Below, one piece after another: positions 1,406-10,755 of a DNA stretch of 13,211 nucleotides. The DNA is from Ignavibacteriaceae bacterium (GTDB lineage Bacteria > Bacteroidota > Ignavibacteria > Ignavibacteriales > Ignavibacteriaceae), in NCBI GenBank assembly GCA_026193755.1, contig JAPHUI010000318.1, forward strand, positions 1 through 13,211, given 5' to 3'. Positions within the stretch are counted from its first letter, which is position 1, and each line of letters opens with the position of its first letter. Under the pieces are notes generated by a model. That model did no database searches, was not told the DNA's origin, and saw nothing but the letters and a program-made list of their open reading frames with translations. Made by a program: the position numbers and the translations under genes.

Positions 1406-1562
1406 CACTTAAAATTACGAAGAAATGAAGTGTTTGTGAAGGCGGCCCCAGCAATAATAACTTTCTGTTCACACACTGTGCAGATAGTTACATTATTTGT
1501 GTACACCTCAATGAATGATTAATTTTCGTCCTCAACAATCGATTATTGGAGAAAAAGTAATT

Positions 1563-3335
1563 ATGAACTTTAATATTCGCACACACAATTGCGGAGAGCT
1601 TATAGAGGAAAATGTTGGTGAAAAAGTTGTCCTAAATGGCTGGGTAGACAGGCGAAGGGACCTTGGCGGTTTGATATTTATATGGTTAAGAGATCGTTAT
1701 GGTATAACGCAGATTGTATTTGAACCGGATTCCGATCAGGTGGCATATGAACTTGCTAAAAAATTAAGAAGCGAATTTGTAATCTCTGTTGAAGGAAAAG
1801 TAAGAAAAAGACCCGACGATGCAGTTAATAAGGATATGAAGACAGGTCTGATAGACGTGCTTGCAGATAAACTGATTATACTTAATGAATCTGAAACACC
1901 TCCATTTGCAATTAAGGATGAAACTGAAACATTTGAAGACCTTAGATTGAAATACAGATATCTAGACTTGAGAAGACCAGCACTCCAAAAAGTTTTACTT
2001 CTTCGACACAGAATGTATCAGCTCGTAAGAAAGTATTTTGATGAAAATGGTTTTGTGGAAATTGAAACTCCTGTTTTGATGAAAAGCACCCCAGAAGGTG
2101 CACGCGATTATCTTGTCCCGAGCAGAATTCATAAAGGAAAATTTTATGCGCTACCACAATCACCGCAGCAATATAAGCAGTTATTAATGGTCTCAGGTTT
2201 TGATCGCTATTTTCAAATAGTAAAATGTTTCAGAGATGAAGATTTAAGAGCTGATCGTCAACCAGAATTTACACAGATAGATGTTGAAATGTCATTCATC
2301 GACAGGGAACAGGTTTTTAACGTTGTAGAAGGCTTGATGAAATTACTCTTTAAACAGCTGTGGGGAATTGAACTTCTTTTACCGATACAGAGACTTGCTT
2401 ATGACGAAGCATTAATTAAATATGGGAGCGATAAACCGGACCTAAGATTTGGAATGGAACTTCATAAATTAAATGAAGTTTTTACTAAGTCTGAATTTAA
2501 AGTCTTTAGCGATGTTGTGAATTCTAAAGGAATTATTGCGGGTTTAGTAGCGAAAGAGTGTGCATCATTCAGCAGAAGTCAATTAGATGGATTAGCTAAT
2601 TTCGTAAAGAATCTTGGAGCAAAAGGATTAGTTTGGTTCAAAGTAACTGAAGATGGTGTAGATTCGCCGACCGCAAAATTTTTGAATGAGAATGAAATTA
2701 AAAATCTTAAAACTAATCTTAAGGCCGAACCAAACGATCTGATTCTTGTATTGGCTGGTGAAAATAACTCCACTCTTAACCAAATGGGCTCTTTAAGATT
2801 GGAAATGGCTAAACGGTTAGAACTTATTAAACCCGAAACTCCTCCTTCACTTTTATGGGTTACAGATTTTCCGCTATTTGAATGGGATGATGAGACGAAA
2901 CGATTTTATGCAATGCATCATCCCTTTACTTCTCCAAGATCGGAAGACATTGGTTTATTAGAAAAAGATCCAGGTAAAATAAAAGCTCAGGCTTATGATC
3001 TTGTTTTAAATGGAAATGAAATTGCTGGTGGCAGTATCAGAATACATAACTCTGAACTTCAGTCAAGAATGTTTAAAGCTCTTGGAATTAGTGAAGAAGA
3101 AGCTCAGCAGAAGTTTGGATTTTTAATGAACGCATTTAAATATGGTGCCCCACCTCATGGTGGGATTGCTTTCGGGTTCGACAGAATGGTAATGTTATTT
3201 GCTGGAGTAGATTCGATAAGAGACACTATTGCTTTTCCTAAAACCGCTAGTGCAATGTCTTTAATGGATGAATGTCCTTCTGAAGTAAGTGAAGAACAGA
3301 TAGAGGAATTACATATAAGATTAATTAAGGACTAA
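1563..3335 (+). CDS. aspS: Aspartyl-tRNA synthetase
   Basis: This class II aminoacyl-tRNA synthetase charges tRNA-Asp in the cytosol. The 590-residue length is typical of the bacterial type, which carries a GAD insertion domain (about 290-400 here). The order is an OB-fold anticodon-binding domain (about 1-105, with GWVDRRRDLGGLIFI), motif 1 (FVEIETPVL near 164), motif 2 (residues about 215-245, including CFRDEDLRADRQPEFTQ) and motif 3 (HGGIAFGFDRMVML near 532-545). Motif 3 has GFDR where most relatives have GLDR. The longest frame opens at 1515, but the ATG at 1563 is chosen because the protein aligns from MNFNIRTHNCGEL and GGAG lies at 1548-1551. Leu34 matches the discriminating E. coli-type enzyme at the position of Pseudomonas His31, while Asp86 at the Gly82/Lys82 position is neither form. 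Strict Asp specificity is therefore likely but not certain. A GTGTACAC palindrome sits upstream at 1499-1506. A diverged second aspS tail lies at 9289-9414. Confidence 0.98.
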   Translation: MNFNIRTHNCGELIEENVGEKVVLNGWVDRRRDLGGLIFIWLRDRYGITQIVFEPDSDQVAYELAKKLRSEFVISVEGKVRKRPDDAVNKDMKTGLIDVLADKLIILNESETPPFAIKDETETFEDLRLKYRYLDLRRPALQKVLLLRHRMYQLVRKYFDENGFVEIETPVLMKSTPEGARDYLVPSRIHKGKFYALPQSPQQYKQLLMVSGFDRYFQIVKCFRDEDLRADRQPEFTQIDVEMSFIDREQVFNVVEGLMKLLFKQLWGIELLLPIQRLAYDEALIKYGSDKPDLRFGMELHKLNEVFTKSEFKVFSDVVNSKGIIAGLVAKECASFSRSQLDGLANFVKNLGAKGLVWFKVTEDGVDSPTAKFLNENEIKNLKTNLKAEPNDLILVLAGENNSTLNQMGSLRLEMAKRLELIKPETPPSLLWVTDFPLFEWDDETKRFYAMHHPFTSPRSEDIGLLEKDPGKIKAQAYDLVLNGNEIAGGSIRIHNSELQSRMFKALGISEEEAQQKFGFLMNAFKYGAPPHGGIAFGFDRMVMLFAGVDSIRDTIAFPKTASAMSLMDECPSEVSEEQIEELHIRLIKD

Positions 3336-3367
3336 ATATAAATACCGAATAATTATTTACATAAAAT

Positions 3368-4924
3368 TTAAGATTCTGAATGTCTGTCAATTGCCGAGAC
3401 ATATGTGAAAGCAACAATGAAAGAAAAACTTACTGTAAATAGTATCACCATAAGAGCCCATAAGAAATAATTGTTGATTGAAAGAAATTTTAGTAAGAAT
3501 GGACCTGTTCTATATTCTAAAAGATATAATGCGGGTGAGTATTTCCAGTTCAAATACAGTGCGTTATTTGCTAGCGTTTCAATCCCCAAGCTTTTTTGAT
3601 GTCTATAAATAATATGCAGATATGAAAATATTTCACCCAGTGAAAAAAATATTTGCTGGACAATGCAGAGGAAACTGAAAAGACTAATAACTAAAAATTG
3701 CTTAAGATTTCCATTTTCAAGAATGTTTTTTATTCCTATTGCTATTGGAACAAACAAAAATGGTATTATGATTACAAAATAACGTGGCCCCAAACAAAAA
3801 CCTCCATGCCAATCACTCCGGCTTGCAATAAAAAGTAATCTTATAAAAAACATTCCTAAAATAGCAATTGATAAATGAGGGAAACCCCTATGGAATGACT
3901 TCCAAAATATGACGGCTAACAATACAATTGGGGAGTAAATAAACAACCCCTTACCAGAACCAAACAAAAGTCCATAAAAAGCGGGTAGCGGATTTGAGTA
4001 AATTGCATAATGAATAAGTTGGTCGGCAGATCTTCCAGTCTCAAAAACATTCCCAAATCTTGTGTAGTTGTAATAAAAAAGTAGAATACAAAAAATTGTT
4101 AAGCCTGATGTAAAATATAAGCTCGAAACAGCAAAATCTTTCAATTCATTTTTATTCTTAAATTTTTGACCCAACATAAACATATAATAGAAAGGTACTG
4201 AGAGGACTGCAGATATATGGCTTGTGATAGCTAATCCTAAAAAAAGGCCTGAGTAAAGATAATTCTGATTTTTAATTTTTGATATTTGTTGGACTTTTTC
4301 ATTCTTGATAATGAATAAAAATGAAAGAATTATAAATAAGGTACACAATGGCTCGCTAAAAAAGGTTCCTGTGTAAGAAAATATCAGTGAACCAAACGAA
4401 TACACCAAAGTAGTATAAAAGCTAATTGTTTTAGATTCAGTTATTCTTAAAAGTATAAAGTAAAGGAATAGTGCTGAGAAGGCGCCAACTATAACGTTGA
4501 AAAAGGAAACTATAAATCTTTCAAATTGTCCGCTCAGATTTGGAGGTCTCTTGTCTTCAAGTACGTATAAACCGGCATCTCTATTATCACTCAGAACATG
4601 ATAGCTTATCGGGATATAATTACTATCTATGATTTGAAATGAGTTTTTCTTTAGGTAATAAGCGAATTCTAATAATGGAATTGCTAAAATGGATTGTGCT
4701 GGGCCAAAGATCGAATAACGATTATTATCTATTCCTTTTGCTAATCCAAAGTTTTGCCAGTTTATTGCCTTTGGAACGGCAAACTCATTTCGATTCAACA
4801 ATGATTCCGTTGTCCGAAATACTGTCTCGCTGTCAGGAGATCTGATACCACCATAATTAAATATTGTATAGTAAATTAAGGTTACAGAAAAAATAATGAG
4901 AGGTAAACTTCTATAATATTTCAT
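3368..4924 (-). CDS. GT-C-like polytopic membrane protein (glycosyltransferase family 39/PMT-like)
   Basis: This 518-residue protein has about ten to twelve hydrophobic segments and probably acts in the inner membrane. After the first segment (about 7-24) comes RSPDSETVFRTTESLL (about 29-43). It places an acidic residue in the first outer loop, as in GT-C enzymes that take sugar from a polyprenyl-phosphate carrier. Further family-like stretches are YSIFGPAQSILAIPL (about 70-84), GSGKGLFIYSPIVLL (about 322-335) and SDWHGGFCLGPRYF (about 370-383). The substrate sugar and acceptor cannot be told. It is the last gene of a leftward series, 23 bases after the stop of the TMTC-like gene, and its ribosome binding site is weak (AAAGA). 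It converges with aspS across only 32 bases, where I see no clear terminator hairpin. It could instead be a family member without shown activity; the membrane GT-C fold is the safer part of the call. Confidence 0.7.
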   Translation of the reverse strand: MKYYRSLPLIIFSVTLIYYTIFNYGGIRSPDSETVFRTTESLLNRNEFAVPKAINWQNFGLAKGIDNNRYSIFGPAQSILAIPLLEFAYYLKKNSFQIIDSNYIPISYHVLSDNRDAGLYVLEDKRPPNLSGQFERFIVSFFNVIVGAFSALFLYFILLRITESKTISFYTTLVYSFGSLIFSYTGTFFSEPLCTLFIILSFLFIIKNEKVQQISKIKNQNYLYSGLFLGLAITSHISAVLSVPFYYMFMLGQKFKNKNELKDFAVSSLYFTSGLTIFCILLFYYNYTRFGNVFETGRSADQLIHYAIYSNPLPAFYGLLFGSGKGLFIYSPIVLLAVIFWKSFHRGFPHLSIAILGMFFIRLLFIASRSDWHGGFCLGPRYFVIIIPFLFVPIAIGIKNILENGNLKQFLVISLFSFLCIVQQIFFSLGEIFSYLHIIYRHQKSLGIETLANNALYLNWKYSPALYLLEYRTGPFLLKFLSINNYFLWALMVILFTVSFSFIVAFTYVSAIDRHSES

Positions 4925-4947
4925 TAATCTTTGGTTCGTATTTCTTA

Positions 4948-6570
4948 TTATTTAATTTCTTCAATTTTCCCAGTTAACTCCTGAATTCTTTTCGTATCAT
5001 TAGCATCTTCTGACTTTTGTTTTTCATCCATAATTAATTTTTTGATTTTTTCAATTATTTTATTTTCATTCGAATATTTTTTTATGAGTTGATCAATTAC
5101 AGCAATCTGATTGGTTTCAATACTTAGCGAAATCAGTTTTTCCAAATAAAAATCAGAATTAAAAGAATCTTCCAGAACTGTCTCTTTGACAAAATTGAAT
5201 GCTTTATACTTTTCATCGTTTTCCAAGTAAAAGTTAATTAGTAATTGTCTCACGCTTGATTCCTTGGGTCTTAATGTTACCGCATTAACGAGTTGTGATT
5301 CTGCTTGTGTTAAATTTTCGGAGTGATTATAGTAATTGAATAAACCTACATAAGGCAGAAAACTTTCAGGATAGTCATCTTTTACAGAGCTCCAATATGA
5401 TGGAGAATTTTTGTAGATTTTAAGCATAAAGAATGTTGAAACAGCAATAGCTAGTATATAGAGAAATGCTAAATAATGGAATAGCTTTTTATATCTGTTG
5501 AATTCGATAGACCTAAATACTTCTGCTATCATTAAGGTTAATCCAAACAAGGGTAAATACGATCTGCAATCCCAATAGAAGAAACCGTCTTGTCCCATCG
5601 TACTGATCACCATCCCGGGAAGCATCAATATAATAAACCAGATCATTCCCCAATAGTATCTGGACTTATTTATGTTTCTAAGTTTAATTGGTAGGCTAAC
5701 AAGTATGAGTAGAATTACTAAACCTGAAACGGAAGTAAATAACTCTATTCTCGGCAAAGCTTTAATACCAATTGGAATGAAGAATTTTGATATTGTTTCT
5801 GGCAGTACCAGGAAATTACTGTAGTAGGTAGTAAATGAAAATTTATCGATGTGTACCTCTGAAAGGAGCAGACCTCGCAGGATATAGTACGAACCCAATG
5901 AAATAATTATTAAAATAAATAAACCCATACTTTTTCTATTAAAATCAAACTCTTTTTGTTCTACAAATAAAAATGCTGCAAATAAAAATGGAATAAGTAG
6001 TGAGGCCTCCTTTGATAAAAACGCAAGAAATACAAATACCAATACTATTAACAACTGAAGTGGATTATTATGTTCTATAAAATTCTGAAGAAAGTATAAT
6101 GCTAATAGTGTAAAGAGTGCTGCAAGCAAATCACCTCGTCCCGCTATCCATCCAACTGTGTTAATATGTATAGGATCCAAAGCAAAGAATAATGAAGCAA
6201 TAGATGAAATAGCTAATGAATACCTCAAGTTTTTTAAAATTAAAAATAACAGGAGGCTCGTGAGCAAGTGAATTATGAAGTTAGATAAATGATAAAGGGA
6301 TAGTGAATTATGGCCTATTGCAGAATCAACTACAAAAGAAAGAAGTGTTATCGGACGATAATAGTGACCACCCAGGTAGTTTGATGTGAATGCAGTTGAA
6401 ATTTTATTACCTAAATTGGTCTCTTCTAAACGTTCGTAAACCAGTATATCATCATCAAGATAAATCAGGTCATAAAAAAAAGATTGAGAATATATTAACA
6501 GCGTGGTGATAATTAATATAGACACTAAAAATTTTGTTGACCTAAATAAATCTGTTTTATAAATTTTCAT
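4948..6570 (-). CDS. TMTC-like GT-C membrane protein with TPR-like tail
   Basis: This 540-residue protein has about ten membrane segments, followed from about residue 395 by a soluble tail with weak tetratricopeptide-like helices. The layout matches bacterial relatives of the animal TMTC O-mannosyltransferases. Matching landmarks are LDDDILVYE in the first outer loop (38-46), HYYRPITLLSFVVDS (69-83), YHLSNFIIHLLTSLLLF (93-109), LDPIHINTVGWIAGRGDLLAALF (131-153, in pieces), LSKEASLLIP near 187, and DCRSYLPLFGLTL near 342. The usual HPxHxE element reads DPIHIN, so its first His and its acidic residue are replaced. The last 30 residues are highly charged (KIIEKIKKLIMDEKQ, then SEDANDTKR). The ATG directly follows the TGA of the broken upstream gene (TGAATG), a sign of former translational coupling. 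It is a clear paralogue of the rightward protein at 7477-9255. The likely role is transfer of a sugar from a lipid carrier to protein or lipid outside the cell; the target is unknown. Confidence 0.75.
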   Translation of the reverse strand: MKIYKTDLFRSTKFLVSILIITTLLIYSQSFFYDLIYLDDDILVYERLEETNLGNKISTAFTSNYLGGHYYRPITLLSFVVDSAIGHNSLSLYHLSNFIIHLLTSLLLFLILKNLRYSLAISSIASLFFALDPIHINTVGWIAGRGDLLAALFTLLALYFLQNFIEHNNPLQLLIVLVFVFLAFLSKEASLLIPFLFAAFLFVEQKEFDFNRKSMGLFILIIISLGSYYILRGLLLSEVHIDKFSFTTYYSNFLVLPETISKFFIPIGIKALPRIELFTSVSGLVILLILVSLPIKLRNINKSRYYWGMIWFIILMLPGMVISTMGQDGFFYWDCRSYLPLFGLTLMIAEVFRSIEFNRYKKLFHYLAFLYILAIAVSTFFMLKIYKNSPSYWSSVKDDYPESFLPYVGLFNYYNHSENLTQAESQLVNAVTLRPKESSVRQLLINFYLENDEKYKAFNFVKETVLEDSFNSDFYLEKLISLSIETNQIAVIDQLIKKYSNENKIIEKIKKLIMDEKQKSEDANDTKRIQELTGKIEEIK

Positions 6571-7154
6571 TCAATTTGTACTCAAACTATCTTGAAGTCT
6601 ATTCTTATTTCTTTCGTAGTTTGCAAGTAAGTAATTGTATTTGCCCAGATTAAAATTCCATATTTCTTTCAGTCGATTCATATCCCAAAGCTTACCTTTG
6701 ATAACGAGAGAAAGTTTATCATAATATTTATGAAGATCCGGATCTTTAATTTGATTAGCTCCCGAACTAATTGTTTCTATATAACCATTGGGGATTTTGC
6801 GTTCAAAATGTCCAATTCTCCAGAAATTTGAATTGTTTTTTTTAAACTCATTCATAGAATGATCCCCTTCACATGGTAGTTTGGATAATAATGGTTCAGA
6901 TAAAGCTAAGGGGTCTACAATATGAATTTTTCTTCCGCTAAAATATCCCCAAAAACCAATTACACCTTTTACAATTATATCTTGATCAAATTTTTTTGAG
7001 ATAAGAGCCTCCTTTACCCAGGGAAAGTTATGTAAGCATCATCTGCCAGCCACGCATTTATGAAAACAATTAATAGAAAAAGAACACTTATAAGGAGAGT
7101 TGTTGAGTGATTTTTAAACCAAAGTGTAATTTTTTCTTCTTTCATTTTATCCAT
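6571..7154 (-). pseudogene. Broken GT-C glycosyltransferase gene (DDAYITF type) with internal deletion
   Basis: The two ends of one membrane glycosyltransferase remain, but the middle is gone. From the ATG at 7154 a 46-codon frame contains one hydrophobic segment and then NAWLADDAYITF, the N-terminal hallmark of a GT-C family whose members are, as I recall, 500-600 residues long. It stops at 7016-7014. A different frame, open from about 7038 to the TGA at 6571, reads LHNFPWVKEALISKKF, then IVKGVIGFWGYFSGRKIHIVD, PLALSEPLLSKLP, NFWRIGHFERKIPNGYIET, and KDPDLHKYYDKLSLVIKG. This is the C-terminal end of the same family. The join lies near 7020-7040, and I infer about 1-1.2 kb was lost out of frame. 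A 94-codon frame starting at ATG 6855 lies inside the C-terminal piece. It has no good ribosome binding site and begins in mid-domain, so it is unlikely to be a gene of its own. The TGA adjoins the start of the next gene. Confidence 0.85.
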
Positions 7155-7476
7155 TTAAAGATTTTTTTTACTATTTGGACAAAGATTAAGCCAAAAAAGC
7201 TAAGTTTACCATGGTCAAAATCATATTAAGCAATTCATTGATAAGTTATTAAAGCTGAGAATATTTGATGTGGTATAATAAATGTTAACCTTTTTTGCAG
7301 TCAATACATTTTGGCAGGAGGTATTCTCCTAAAGAAATTTTTACATGAATAAATTTATAAATGCCAGATTATACTATTCAGTGATTATTTTTTATCAAAA
7401 GTAAATAGAAAAAAAAGAATGATTTCTAATTATTACGTGGTTGAAAGAATAAAAATCTATTATAAGGACAGATAAT
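7155..7476. other. Intergenic region between divergent glycosyltransferase genes
   Basis: These 322 bases separate the broken leftward gene from the rightward TMTC-like gene and are very AT-rich. They hold an extended -10 promoter element for the rightward gene (7271-7279). There is also a small hairpin AGGAG-GTATT-CTCCT (7316-7330) that would pair a Shine-Dalgarno-like AGGAGG with its complement in the leader RNA. A 19-codon frame (7345-7404, MNKFINARLYYSVIIFYQK) has no suitably spaced ribosome binding site. I see no RNA gene and no clear promoter for the leftward series. Confidence 0.6.
7271..7279 (+). promoter_or_regulatory. Extended -10 promoter element for the rightward TMTC-like gene
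   Basis: TGGTATAAT is a perfect extended -10 element (TGnTATAAT). There is no recognisable -35 hexamer at the usual distance, which extended -10 promoters can do without. Transcription would start near 7286 and leave a leader of about 190 bases, including the AGGAG/CTCCT hairpin. The call rests on motif match alone. Confidence 0.45.
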
Positions 7477-9255
7477 ATGAACGCAAATGAGTCTCTAAAG
7501 AAATATTCCTTTAAATATCTCCCACAATTATTAATTATCGGATTAATTATATTTTCTTACAGTCACAATCTGTGGTTTGATTTTACTTATGTAGATGATA
7601 ATCTGATTGTATTTGATGAATACGATAATATTAATAGTCTCGACAAAATCCCATCTACTTTTGTTAATGGATATCTCTTTGATAATTATTACAGGCCGAT
7701 GGTGATGATTAGCTTTATTATAGACACTGCAATTGCAGGTCAGTCTTCGTTGATGTATCATTTAACAAATATAATTTTACACATTATTGTAACCCTTCTT
7801 CTATTCAAAATATTATTGACTATTGGAATTAAGAAGAATATATCTCTTTTAGCCGCCTGTTTTTATGCTGTTCATCCTTTAAACGTCAGCGCAGTTTCCT
7901 GGATTGTTGGAAGGAATGATCTTCTATTAGCAGTTTTTAGTGTTAGTAGCCTATTCCTTTACATGAGGTTCAGGGAGAATAATAAAAAAATATATTTGGT
8001 GTTTAGCTTAATAACATATCTTTTCGCAATGTTATCTAAAGAGGCGGGAGTTTTAATCCCTGCGCTGATTATCTTTTACGAGTTACTTCTTCGTGCAAAG
8101 AATAAATTTAAACTTAACCAATTTTATTCATTATTTTATTTTATTCTTCCAGCCTTAATCTATTTTGTCTTAAGAAAATTTGTCGCCCACGTTATTGTAA
8201 GAGAGGAAATTGGAATCACATCATTTTTTCAAAACATTTACATACTGTTTGAATATATCGCAAAGACCGTCTATTTCTTTTACATAGATCCGCTTCCAGT
8301 TAAAAATTATCTATTGATTTGGGTTGGAATAGTTACTTTTGCTTTACTGATTTTATTCTTAGTTGTTAATTGGAAAAGCAGTTTAACCAAGTATTTCTTA
8401 TTCGGATTTCTGATTTTTTTAACCATTGTTTTGCCAACACTTTTCGTTAGGGTTAATGCTGATGACGGTATATTTAATTATATAGATTGTAGAATGTACC
8501 TTCCTCTACTCGGATTAACAATGTCCTATGCAGTTATTTTTGAGAAGCTGTCAGGGTTTTTAAAGAAGTCAGCAAAATTAATTACCACAGGATCATTATT
8601 TATTTACTTAATCGTATTTACATTTTTAACTAGTTCAGTTTATAAAAATGGGATTGCATTCTGGGGAACAGCTCTTAAAAAGAATCCTGATAGAGCAACA
8701 TACTGGATGGGATTAGGATATTATTATCTTGATAATAAAATGTATTCGGATGCCGTCAAGTGTGCTACAAATGCTATTAATCTTAAACCGGATATTGGTG
8801 AATACTATCTTAAAGCAGCATTTGCCTGCGAAGCAGCAGGAGATTTTAAAAAAGCAATAGAGTTTTTGGAAAAAGGATTAGATGCAAAAACAGATAGTTC
8901 TATAAACCTATCTAATCTAATAAAAAATTATCTTAGGTTAGGTGATAAAGTAAAAGCAGATGAACTTAAAAATCAGCTTGAGCAACTTGATATTTCAGAC
9001 CTAAATAAGAAGGCAAATTTATATTCCTCCGTGTCTTATTATTATAGTTATTCGAATTATCTTGAAGATTCAATTATTTTAATGCGTAAAGCAATCTATT
9101 TTATTCCGGATAATCCAGTTTTTTTGAATGATTTAGGAGTATTTTATTATAAAGTTGGAGAAATCGATTCGGCAAAAAATTATATTAGCCAGGCAATCCA
9201 GCTAGATCCCAATAATCTTAATTATCAGAGAAATCTAAACGCTATAAAAAGATAG
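7477..9255 (+). CDS. TMTC-like GT-C membrane protein with C-terminal TPR repeats
   Basis: This 592-residue protein is a paralogue of the leftward protein at 4948-6570. The first ~390 residues hold about ten membrane segments with the shared landmarks YVDDNLIVFDE (38-48), NYYRPMVMISFIIDT (70-84), YHLTNIILHI (94-103), AVHPLNVSAVSWIVGRNDLL (131-150), LSKEAGVLIPAL (186-197) and DCRMYLPLLGLTM (337-349). The HPxHxE element reads HPLNVS, so its second His and the acidic residue differ. The soluble tail has good tetratricopeptide repeats at about 406-439, 440-473, 515-548 and 549-582, with a weaker one near 475-505. The last contains LNDLGVFYYKVGEIDSAKNY. A ribosome binding site (AAGGA, 7464-7468) precedes the ATG by eight bases. 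The likely role is a membrane glycosyltransferase using a lipid-linked sugar, with the TPR tail binding partner proteins. Sugar and acceptor are unknown. It ends 34 bases before the fragmentary aspS tail. Confidence 0.78.
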   Translation: MNANESLKKYSFKYLPQLLIIGLIIFSYSHNLWFDFTYVDDNLIVFDEYDNINSLDKIPSTFVNGYLFDNYYRPMVMISFIIDTAIAGQSSLMYHLTNIILHIIVTLLLFKILLTIGIKKNISLLAACFYAVHPLNVSAVSWIVGRNDLLLAVFSVSSLFLYMRFRENNKKIYLVFSLITYLFAMLSKEAGVLIPALIIFYELLLRAKNKFKLNQFYSLFYFILPALIYFVLRKFVAHVIVREEIGITSFFQNIYILFEYIAKTVYFFYIDPLPVKNYLLIWVGIVTFALLILFLVVNWKSSLTKYFLFGFLIFLTIVLPTLFVRVNADDGIFNYIDCRMYLPLLGLTMSYAVIFEKLSGFLKKSAKLITTGSLFIYLIVFTFLTSSVYKNGIAFWGTALKKNPDRATYWMGLGYYYLDNKMYSDAVKCATNAINLKPDIGEYYLKAAFACEAAGDFKKAIEFLEKGLDAKTDSSINLSNLIKNYLRLGDKVKADELKNQLEQLDISDLNKKANLYSSVSYYYSYSNYLEDSIILMRKAIYFIPDNPVFLNDLGVFYYKVGEIDSAKNYISQAIQLDPNNLNYQRNLNAIKR

Positions 9256-9288
9256 AAAATTATAATATTATTCAATCTCATTCTAAAA

Positions 9289-9414
9289 GTTGATCTGAAA
9301 AGAGATAATACCGTATTCACCAAAACCGCAAATGCACTCTCACTTTTGGACGATTCACCAACTGTCGTAAGTGATGAGCAGCTCAAAGAGTCACATATAA
9401 AATTACTGGATTGA
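9289..9414 (+). pseudogene. Diverged fragment of the 3' end of an aspartyl-tRNA synthetase gene
   Basis: The frame ending at TGA 9412-9414 reads VDLKRDNTVFTKTANALSLL, then DDSPTVVSDEQLKESHIKLLD. It aligns without gaps to the end of the intact aspS in this window (VDSIRDTIAFPKTASAMSLM, then DECPSEVSEEQIEELHIRLI). From RD onward 19 of 37 residues are identical by my hand count, and the order of the shared D, P, VS, EQ, E and HI residues is kept. Resemblance fades before about 9283, so only about 42 codons remain, without a start. The DNA differs at most third positions, so this is no recent copy. It has the same orientation as the intact gene and lies about 6 kb downstream of it, on the far side of the glycosyltransferase block. 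It is either the displaced tail of an older aspS or the remains of a second aspS. Confidence 0.85.
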
Positions 9415-9606
9415 GTAATTTCCCCCGGTTAAAATTCTTTCTTTAAAATTTATTTCACAATTTATTTTAAATCGCAAATTTGAATTTGAGATAGTTCCTT
9501 CCTGATTTAATAAGCAGAATTTATCCAAATTATAAACTTCAAGTCACATATTTACTGACAAATTGGATTTAATTACATGGTCAGAAATGTCGTCAAACAA
9601 GCTGTC

Positions 9607-9786
9607 GTAAAAATTACGGGGTAAACATCTGATTGCTGAATAATTTTTTTAATTTAAACTAAAACTTCAGTCTGAAGAATCGAAGCTTGTAAGTAGACCG
9701 ACATATTTAGTTTGTAATATTTACGGAATGATTTTATTAGCTTCCTACTATGTATCTATCGAAACTCTTACTTGTAATATTTACCG
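9607..9786. repeat. Three GTAA-N3-TTAC interrupted palindromes upstream of the pilins
   Basis: The sites are GTAAAAATTACGG (9607-9619), GTAATATTTACGG (9714-9726) and GTAATATTTACCG (9774-9786). The last two share TTGTAATATTTAC and are 60 bases apart. All have 4-base arms, a 3-base centre and a trailing G-rich or CG end. Symmetric half-sites with fixed spacing are typical of binding sites for dimeric regulators; that role is inferred. Confidence 0.5.
9665..9677. repeat. CTTCAG-T-CTGAAG inverted repeat
   Basis: This perfect 6-base inverted repeat around a single central T lies between the first and second GTAA-N3-TTAC sites. A one-base centre is too tight for an RNA hairpin, so a protein-binding site is the likelier reading. 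It may also be chance. Confidence 0.3.
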
Positions 9787-9907
9787 CGTCAATAATTTCG
9801 GCTTCTCTGATTAAAAAATTATCAATTAATTAAAGTTTTAAACTCTTGGCATATTTTTTTGTGCACTATATGCAATGTTTCAAAATTTAAAAATTAGTTA
9901 GGATACA

Positions 9908-10291
9908 ATGGGTCAACAACAGCTTTTATTGATTGTACTGGCACTTATTATAATAGCCATAGCTGTAGCTATTTCTATTAGTTTATTCAGATCGAATGCA
10001 ATAGAACAGAAGCGTGATATACTTATTGAAGAAACAACCAGTTTAGGTACAATGGCGCTTCATTACTTTAAGAAACCTCAGGAATTAGGTGGTGGTGGAA
10101 ACTCTTTTCTGGGCTGGACAATCCCCTCGCAAATGGTACAGACAATTAATGGAAATTTTATGACTGCTTCAATTGTTGCCGACCAGATCGTAATAACTGG
10201 CACGGGAAGTGAAGTAATAACAGGGAATGATTCTATAAAAGTGACAACAACAGTAAAACCAGACGAAATGTTTACAGAAGTAATAAACTAA
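9908..10291 (+). CDS. Type IV pilin-like protein with minimal leader (copy 1)
   Basis: This 127-residue protein begins MGQQQLLLIVLALIIIAIAV. Gly2 is followed at once by a long hydrophobic helix (about 6-27), then by a soluble domain. This is the layout of type IV pilin-like subunits with an extremely short leader, cleaved after Gly2 if processed. The usual Glu at mature position 5 is absent (Leu). The soluble part has LGTMALHYFKKPQELGGGGNSFLGW (46-70, in pieces), shared with the next protein, then a beta-rich end with VADQIVITGTGSE and KVTTTVKPDE. The start is set by TTAGGA at 9898-9903, only four bases before the ATG, a weaker site than that of copy 2. The stop is followed after 59 bases by copy 2, so they are probably co-transcribed. 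Its likely role is a structural or minor subunit of a surface filament or pseudopilus. No cysteine is present. Confidence 0.75.
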   Translation: MGQQQLLLIVLALIIIAIAVAISISLFRSNAIEQKRDILIEETTSLGTMALHYFKKPQELGGGGNSFLGWTIPSQMVQTINGNFMTASIVADQIVITGTGSEVITGNDSIKVTTTVKPDEMFTEVIN

Positions 10292-10350
10292 CTCATAGTT
10301 AACAATAACACTTAATTAACTAAACAATAACAAACACAAGGAGTAATTAA

Positions 10351-10755
10351 ATGGGTCAGCAACAGCTTCTCTTAATCGTACTTGGTGTTATCATAGTAGG
10401 TATCGCAGTTGTAGTTGGTATCAACTTATTTAACGCTAATGCGGAAGAATCAGCTAAAGATGGTATCGTTTCTGATTGTACTAACCTAGGTGCTATGGCA
10501 CAGCAATATTATAAGAAACCTACTTCAATGGGTGGTGGTGGAAACACATTTGATGGTACTGGTGGCACACCAGCCTCACCACCATGGGATGTTCCTATAA
10601 ACTTAGCAACGACCGCTAATGGTACGTATACTGCTGGTGTAACAGCACAGCAGGTTGTAATAACAGGTGTGCCTATTGCAAGTAACGGTTATCTTTGGAC
10701 AGTAATAACAACCGTTACGCCGACTTCAATCGGTACTATAGTAAACACTCCTTAA
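10351..10755 (+). CDS. Type IV pilin-like protein with minimal leader (copy 2, probably the major subunit)
   Basis: This 134-residue paralogue of the preceding protein begins MGQQQLLLIVLGVIIVGIAV, with the same Gly2 cleavage context, the same missing Glu5 and a helix over about 6-27. The shared motif is LGAMAQQYYKKPTSMGGGGNTFDG (47-69, in pieces). The later part is rich in Gly, Thr, Pro and Ala (GTGGTPASPPWD near 69-80) and has many Thr and Ser residues that could carry O-linked sugars. A single cysteine (Cys43) is present. A strong AAGGAG ribosome binding site (10338-10343) lies seven bases before the ATG, and an intrinsic terminator follows 41 bases after the stop. Together these suggest high expression and a main-subunit role; that is inference. 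The start is unambiguous because the MGQQQLLLIVL end is conserved between the copies. Confidence 0.78.
   Translation: MGQQQLLLIVLGVIIVGIAVVVGINLFNANAEESAKDGIVSDCTNLGAMAQQYYKKPTSMGGGGNTFDGTGGTPASPPWDVPINLATTANGTYTAGVTAQQVVITGVPIASNGYLWTVITTVTPTSIGTIVNTP

Follow-up and report, generated by a model that had tools for sequence, protein, structure and literature searches.

The contig under study (C249; hereafter the window, 13,211 nt) is one of the 476 contigs of a 2.5-Mb Ignavibacteriaceae genome (G000), and it carries aspS, the gene for aspartyl-tRNA synthetase (AspRS), followed by a block of glycosyltransferase-like (GT) genes and a second, displaced aspS 3′ end. The closest named records by AspRS were Ignavibacterium and Ignavibacteriales metagenome-assembled genomes (MAGs) at 70-71% identity. 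The window contains, in order, a thymidine-phosphorylase-like gene (minus strand, called deoA by eye) on the upstream side of aspS, the intact aspS, a minus-strand GT-C pair (GTa and GTb), the piece of a third gene (GTc), a further GT gene (GTd), the aspS tail and the pilins, with a type II secretion F-type gene at the right end after two pilin-like genes. The intact aspS occupies 1515-3335 on the plus strand and encodes 606 amino acids (aa) with GAD and OB-fold domains (PF00152, 409 bits), ending where a first-pass annotation made from the letters of the window had placed its stop. The displaced aspS 3′ end, decayed and closed by its own stop, was identified at 9289-9414 on the plus strand by tblastn, blastn and profile hidden Markov models; it lies 6 kb 3′ of the intact aspS and 33 nt behind GTd. 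An intergenic stretch (9415-9907), whose length fits that of loci lacking the block, separates it from the pilin-like gene pair (MGQQQLL...; 9908-10755, plus strand; named by eye, no Pfam match) that forms the right border of the site.

Three kinds of search confirmed that 9289-9414 is a decayed AspRS C-terminus, as the first-pass annotation had proposed. With the intact AspRS as query, tblastn matched 9277-9408 (50% over 44 residues, E 8.9e-7), and the similarity extended back to 9256-9277; blastn with the intact aspS tail matched a 118-nt repeat at 9288-9405 (68%, E 4e-7). Profiles of the family AspRS tails, built from the group's own tails and run against 588,150 bases downstream of aspS genes, matched the remnant as protein (i-E 5e-9) and as DNA (E 2.6e-14). 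The clear matches of this search, in G000, G002, G039 and G043, were all forward, and the best reverse-strand match reached E 2.9. The frame closing at 9414 reads ...RDNTVFTKTANALSLLDDSPTVVSDEQLKESHIKLLD up to its stop. It shares its residue with the intact tail at 19 of 36 compared codons, close to the 19 of 37 counted previously, and the motif ACATATAA.ATTA (the point standing for one differing base), already noticed near both stops, is common to the intact and the displaced tail. Residues invariant in 16 of 16 intact tails compared, such as the proline of FPKT, are altered in the remnant, which is therefore unlikely to work as a gene end.

The block is absent from G001, G003, G004 and contig C114 of G067 (G067a), where aspS is followed directly by the pilin pair. 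The first three genomes belong to the window's genus; G067 is labelled as another genus, but the aspS on C114 is of the window's genus type. The distance from the aspS stop to the pilin was 484, 481, 468 and 507 nt in these loci, respectively, and that from the displaced tail to the pilins was 494 nt in the window and 469 nt in G002, a relative which also carries a displaced tail. Because the tail-pilin distance equals the aspS-pilin distance of the empty sites, the remnant most probably shows where aspS used to end. The flanks were too diverged for alignment, so the native place of the window and G002 tails rests on this spacing. The confirmed remnant and the empty sites bear out the geometry of gene, inserted block and displaced tail recognised in the first reading of the window. 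Among loci L028-L031 and L113-L172, the aspS-pilin interval ranged from ~150 nt to >12 kb, and many intervals held minus-strand pseudopilin-like genes (by eye), not tail-bearing inserts. G067 has two AspRS genes on separate contigs, one on C114 (L113; 83% like the window's genus) and one on C111 (L127; 70%), and is perhaps a mixed bin.

The block itself consists of genes with no Pfam match to mobility families, and it encodes no recombinase. GTa (3368-4924, minus strand, 518 aa; PF02366 PMT, E 4e-7) and GTb (4948-6570, minus strand, 540 aa; PF13231 PMT_2, E 1e-8) are GT-C glycosyltransferase-like, and their homologues also sit between aspS and the pilins in G042 and G043. GTd (7477-9255, plus strand, 592 aa; PF13231 and TPR matches) encodes a membrane glycosyltransferase-like protein with PMT_2 and TPR parts; it is the final gene ahead of the displaced tail, and a 57% homologue directly precedes a displaced aspS tail in G002. 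GTc (6571-7150, minus strand) is a decayed gene by a three-frame reading judged by eye, with an open C-terminal piece at 6571-6855, further remains upstream in the same frame and an N-terminal fragment in a different frame reaching ~7150, most of the middle being gone (by eye). The open piece had no Pfam match of its own and resembles the C-termini of longer proteins (519-543 aa) from G039, G043, G066, G078 and G079. Of the four glycosyltransferase-like genes originally counted, three therefore stand, each with PMT-type Pfam matches, and the fourth is no more than the C-terminal remnant of a disrupted gene. The G+C content is 0.30 in the block and 0.36 both in aspS and on the pilin side. In the stretch that separates the minus-strand GT genes from GTd, no second displaced tail was found.

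To place the window among its relatives, aspS loci were taken from 62 of the 80 family genomes (several of the other 18 had no listed aspS locus or downstream DNA), giving 59 loci with at least 1 kb downstream: 55 from the family search, in which G067 appears twice, and four further named MAGs. Displaced forward aspS tails or pieces were present in five of the 59 loci, namely the window, G002, G007, G039 and G043. G002 has two of them, one of 178 nt at 87% and one a 39-nt piece, the G039 tail is 75% identical over 115 nt, and the G007 piece begins at about residue 370 and runs off the contig end. The G043 tail starts abruptly and is 96% identical to the intact end, differing at 3 of 85 nt. The flank after this tail aligned with the flank after the intact aspS of G042 (score 448, against at most 24 in 20 shuffles), and relative to G042 the locus shows a clean insertion of 651 nt between two aspS tails. 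The insert holds a ParE/antitoxin-like pair (by eye, named for its likeness to G039 proteins matching PF05016 and PF09720), the toxin-like gene having an inner stop, and is apparently a toxin-antitoxin-like pair. Entry of DNA at a 3′ end, with the gene keeping a whole end, had been suggested for the window and is cleanly seen in this comparison.

The inserts and their junctions differ from locus to locus. The gene just before the tail is GT-type in the window and G002, and membrane glycosyltransferase-like (by eye) before the G007 piece; a DUF5615/DUF433 pair stands before the short tail of G002, and the G039 tail is preceded by a HicB-like gene and then by what looks by eye like a HicA end. 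The displaced aspS repeats are 39 to 178 nt long, the G007 piece being cut by the contig end. Their starts lie about 51, 97, 130 to 150, 177, 186 and 700 nt before the stop, with decay blurring the start points of the older tails. No junction motif was shared among the displaced aspS tails. A constant attachment site was considered and rejected, as the breakpoints vary and an ACGTCGC motif near two tails is absent from all other inserts. In line with the earlier remark that no integrase is visible, none was matched among the window block genes, while serine recombinases were not searched in the relatives. In the five genomes searched, three of them fragmented assemblies, no PF00589 tyrosine integrase occurred on the aspS contig of G000, G039 or G007, and the nearest lay ~165 kb from aspS in G002 and ~90 kb in G043. 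A PF00872 Mutator-family transposase gene was noticed in G043 (L123:8290-9522), between the displaced tail and the GT-like genes; transposases in the relatives were not searched systematically.

Under strict settings, displaced tails followed 3 of 55 aspS genes and 3 of 432 other open reading frames (ORFs) of the same loci (p 0.02; with one locus fewer, 3/54 and 3/422, p 0.02), which is suggestive only of an insertion hot spot at aspS, given that the window fails the strict threshold and the three non-aspS matches lie at paralogues or directly beside the gene. A search of IMG/VR with the aspS tail returned three contigs, each with a near-full aspS at 40-54% identity. In the single-contig genome G047, the AspRS match (C1:3067884-3069661, L172) fell into three pieces, the middle one just 53% identical.

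An 800-kb scan of G002 revealed the displaced-tail scar behind further genes besides aspS. An RNA (uracil-5-)methyltransferase-type gene (1043849-1047983, L175) has two displaced ends with a DUF5615/DUF433 pair between; these ends are 92% alike, but 83% to the intact end. At the gene at 1107350, the displaced tail lies behind an insert with a UPF0175 gene, and the site is empty in G000, G004 and G001. The displaced tail and its flank aligned with the native end and flank as one piece in G000 and G004 and as two neighbouring pieces in G001, so that entry of DNA at a gene 3′ end is also seen behind a gene other than aspS. The gene at 1285851 has a displaced tail too. At 1328761-1334431 (L189), a 3-kb insert is flanked by direct repeats of a ~180-nt convergent-pair junction that includes both gene ends; the relatives fetched for this locus did not show its flank.

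A looser version of the scan was cluttered by numerous paralogues and short repeats, and a strict own-tail scan took its place. In the first 400 kb of G002, the strict scan found eight displaced tails from six genes among 299 ORFs, aspS included; G037 gave two matches in 272 ORFs, both repetitive-looking by eye. Displaced heads upstream numbered 0, 0, 0, 2 and 3 in the first and second 400 kb of G002, in G043, in G037 and in E. coli K-12, respectively, so none occurred in G002 under strict settings. The wrong-direction controls, in the same order, gave 0, 2, 0, 1 and 0 tails upstream and 1, 1, 2, 2 and 2 heads downstream. In E. coli K-12, a 144-nt fragment (716721-716864, L257) with 90% identity to the kdpE end lies 4 kb downstream, at the pseudogene ybfI.

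The sequence differences between displaced and intact tails bear on where the ends came from. Among eleven pooled tails, 102 of 179 differences fell at third codon positions. From the third-position ratios between working tails (0.81 and 0.87), the expectation for duplication followed by decay was estimated at 0.473, and the excess over it had a p of 0.006; a first expectation of 0.435, set before the ratios were seen, gave p 0.0002. The p value was 0.009 without related tails and 0.014 without G039 as well. Such an excess would be expected if the ends had diverged before meeting. Working genes have a much higher third-position fraction, indicating that the displaced tails have decayed too. 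The G039 displaced tail grouped with G002, a member of another genus (support 96/90; the bootstrap had not settled), and its grouping with its own genus was rejected by an approximately unbiased test (AU p 0.044) chosen after the sequences had been seen; this genome of genus g10 thus carries a g1-type tail.

In a phylogenetic tree of 17 rows, the window aspS was located within its own genus, g1, with 100/100 support, and no clear shift or breakpoint was found along the gene. The idea that the intact aspS may be foreign, raised in the first-pass annotation, thus found no support at the genus level for the gene as a whole. The remnant itself was too decayed to be placed in a tree. Replacement of the 3′ end of aspS in the window itself is likely, if unproven.

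We consider it probable that the window records one or more past insertions of homology-anchored incoming DNA at the aspS 3′ end. DNA from a relative would arrive carrying an aspS end together with accessory genes and would join the resident aspS through shared sequence, presumably by RecA-type homologous recombination. At this left join the incoming end would restore the aspS reading frame, and the intact end of the window would then be the incoming one. The other DNA end would join the resident aspS tail at a variable position inside it (right join), and the old tail, pushed downstream with its native flank, would subsequently decay. The route may be a single-crossover insertion or homology-facilitated illegitimate recombination. 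Gene-restoring events may survive because selection keeps the essential gene intact, which could be why tails rather than heads are displaced.

Several observations weigh against this reading. The flank 3′ of the window remnant fails to align with sister flanks, and the remnant has an end branch of 2.1 in its tree, with placement tests giving p 0.07 and 0.14. The window alone shows 18 of 35 differences at third positions (p 0.37), and the pooled third-position signal weakens to p 0.07 once tail c3, G039 and two related tails are left out; moreover, its expectation was revised after the data were seen, and the tails are not all independent. The G043 interval holds the Mutator-type transposase gene, though outside the aspS-to-tail insert. 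Displaced tails were missing from two of the four 400-kb Ignavibacteria-type stretches (0 of 300 ORFs in the second 400 kb of G002 and 0 of 300 in the G043 stretch, which lacks aspS), and the strict scan of the E. coli K-12 control found three in 327 ORFs. The uneven rates and the E. coli matches point to a general process more than to a dedicated system; with just one stretch standing out, a special lineage-wide mechanism is unsupported. The remaining difficulties lie on the GTd side. G042 and G043 carry GT genes homologous to those of the window (45-62% identical) in the same place and have no recognisable aspS tail after GTd, so the displacement may have had a cause other than the GT genes. 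Furthermore, the tails start alike behind GTd, after 33 nt in the window and 44 nt in G002, despite differing age; the G002 tail is 86% identical to its own aspS, and the working tails of the window and G002 species are ~77% identical. Simple independent events leave these like starts unexplained.

The spread of a ready-made unit of gene end, GTd and gene end, or gene conversion, would explain these misfits, covering both the tail-less GT genes of G042 and G043 and the like tail starts of the window and G002. A broader version of this idea, for which we see a modest chance, is that a unit of gene end, cargo and gene end, once formed, could itself be a mobile cassette that carries no recombinase. 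Each end would be homologous to the same short stretch in every relative, and ordinary recombination could insert it at an empty aspS end or excise it exactly while the essential gene always worked. A cassette would account for tails that start alike behind GTd at differing age, for the presence of a g1-type tail in G039, a g10 genome, and for the recurrence as cargo of toxin-antitoxin-like pairs, which resist loss.

Set beside insertion by homology-anchored incoming DNA, duplication of the target without foreign ends appears unlikely. Here a staggered break or template switching would have copied the gene end on the spot during capture of the accessory DNA, and the ~180-nt junction on both sides of the G002 convergent-pair insert, as well as the G043 tails differing at just 3 of 85 nt, would suit such an event. 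Nevertheless, the third-position excess between tails, though weak, and the g1-type tail of G039 both point to ends that diverged before meeting.

An integrase-bearing element that attached at the aspS 3′ end, supplied a replacement end and later lost its integrase is a poor candidate, although the geometry is that of elements restoring a gene end and every clear displaced aspS tail runs forward. This explanation fails because the integrase is missing and the breakpoints are variable: no tyrosine integrase lies near aspS in the five genomes searched (three as fragmented assemblies), and the displaced pieces start 51 to ~700 nt before the stop without a shared junction motif. The inserts also differ, with GT-type genes in some and several toxin-antitoxin-like families in others.

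A decayed tandem second aspS of which the end alone survives, the main alternative of the first-pass annotation, is highly improbable despite the G007 piece starting far upstream, near residue 370, since no fetched locus has two full aspS genes (those of G067 lie on different contigs) or the block together with a full second aspS, and since the remnant begins directly behind a GT gene and the near-unchanged 85-nt tail of G043 starts abruptly.

These scars suggest that accessory genes can settle beside an essential gene with no obvious mobile element to carry them, by bringing along an extra copy of its end. Their occurrence in some relatives suggests that small pieces of DNA slip in behind essential genes in this manner. 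Decayed tails would then be fossils of insertion events, marking the cargo, the place and sometimes the source genus. An own-tail search over complete genomes would measure the share of this route in the gene gain of uncultured lineages. If the cassette idea is true, conserved housekeeping gene ends would serve as attachment sites for RecA alone.

The window can be compared with several known systems. The e14 element in icd is an integrative element that restores the 3′ end of its gene, and the window shares with such elements the order of intact gene, insert and displaced tail; unlike them, it has no integrase found, no attachment core and, with its relatives, variable cut points. The kdpE fragment at ybfI in the rhsC stretch of E. 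coli K-12 is likewise a gene-end fragment downstream of its gene; it lies near an Rhs element, whereas here one housekeeping gene is affected in several genomes. 'Orphaned' 3′ regions at Rhs loci are noted in a study of Vibrio cholerae (PMC5361080). That study describes sequential displacement of type VI secretion system (T6SS) effector genes, proposed to proceed via homology-facilitated illegitimate recombination. The resemblance lies in a module anchored upstream by homology, an old 3′ end shifted downstream and events that stack into arrays; the difference is that a variable effector or domain is replaced there, whereas here it is the end of an essential enzyme, with function kept and unrelated cargo. 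Recombination of this type was also studied in E. coli (PMC3240628).

The displaced tails also resemble insertions with long target duplication. In homology-facilitated illegitimate recombination the second junction is non-homologous, typically with microhomology. Insertion with long target duplication was reportedly found in H. pylori by Nobusato et al. in 2000. For Helicobacter restriction-modification genes, such insertion is described in three papers (PMC1643837, PMC3874152, PMC3031569). In both settings genes lie between long, variable direct target repeats in the order of 100 bp, no known mobile element is present, and addiction-type genes are among the cargo. Direct target repeats of ~100 bp flank the inserts of the window (118 nt, 68%), G002 (178 nt), G043 (85 nt) and the G002 convergent pair (~180 nt). 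The corresponding unduplicated empty sites were found in G001, G003, G004 and G067a for the window, in G042 for G043, and in G000, G004 and G001 for the G002 gene at 1107350. The data thus fit insertion with long target duplication; unlike the Helicobacter case, the cargo here is toxin-antitoxin-like and glycosyltransferase-like, the sites are gene 3′ ends and the lineage is of Ignavibacteria type. Our literature search found no paper joining aspartyl-tRNA synthetase, genomic islands and integration sites, and, judged by title, none on such insertions among those on Ignavibacteria, horizontal gene transfer and natural transformation. The process is a known one in an unusual setting, in which the end of an essential gene is used repeatedly.

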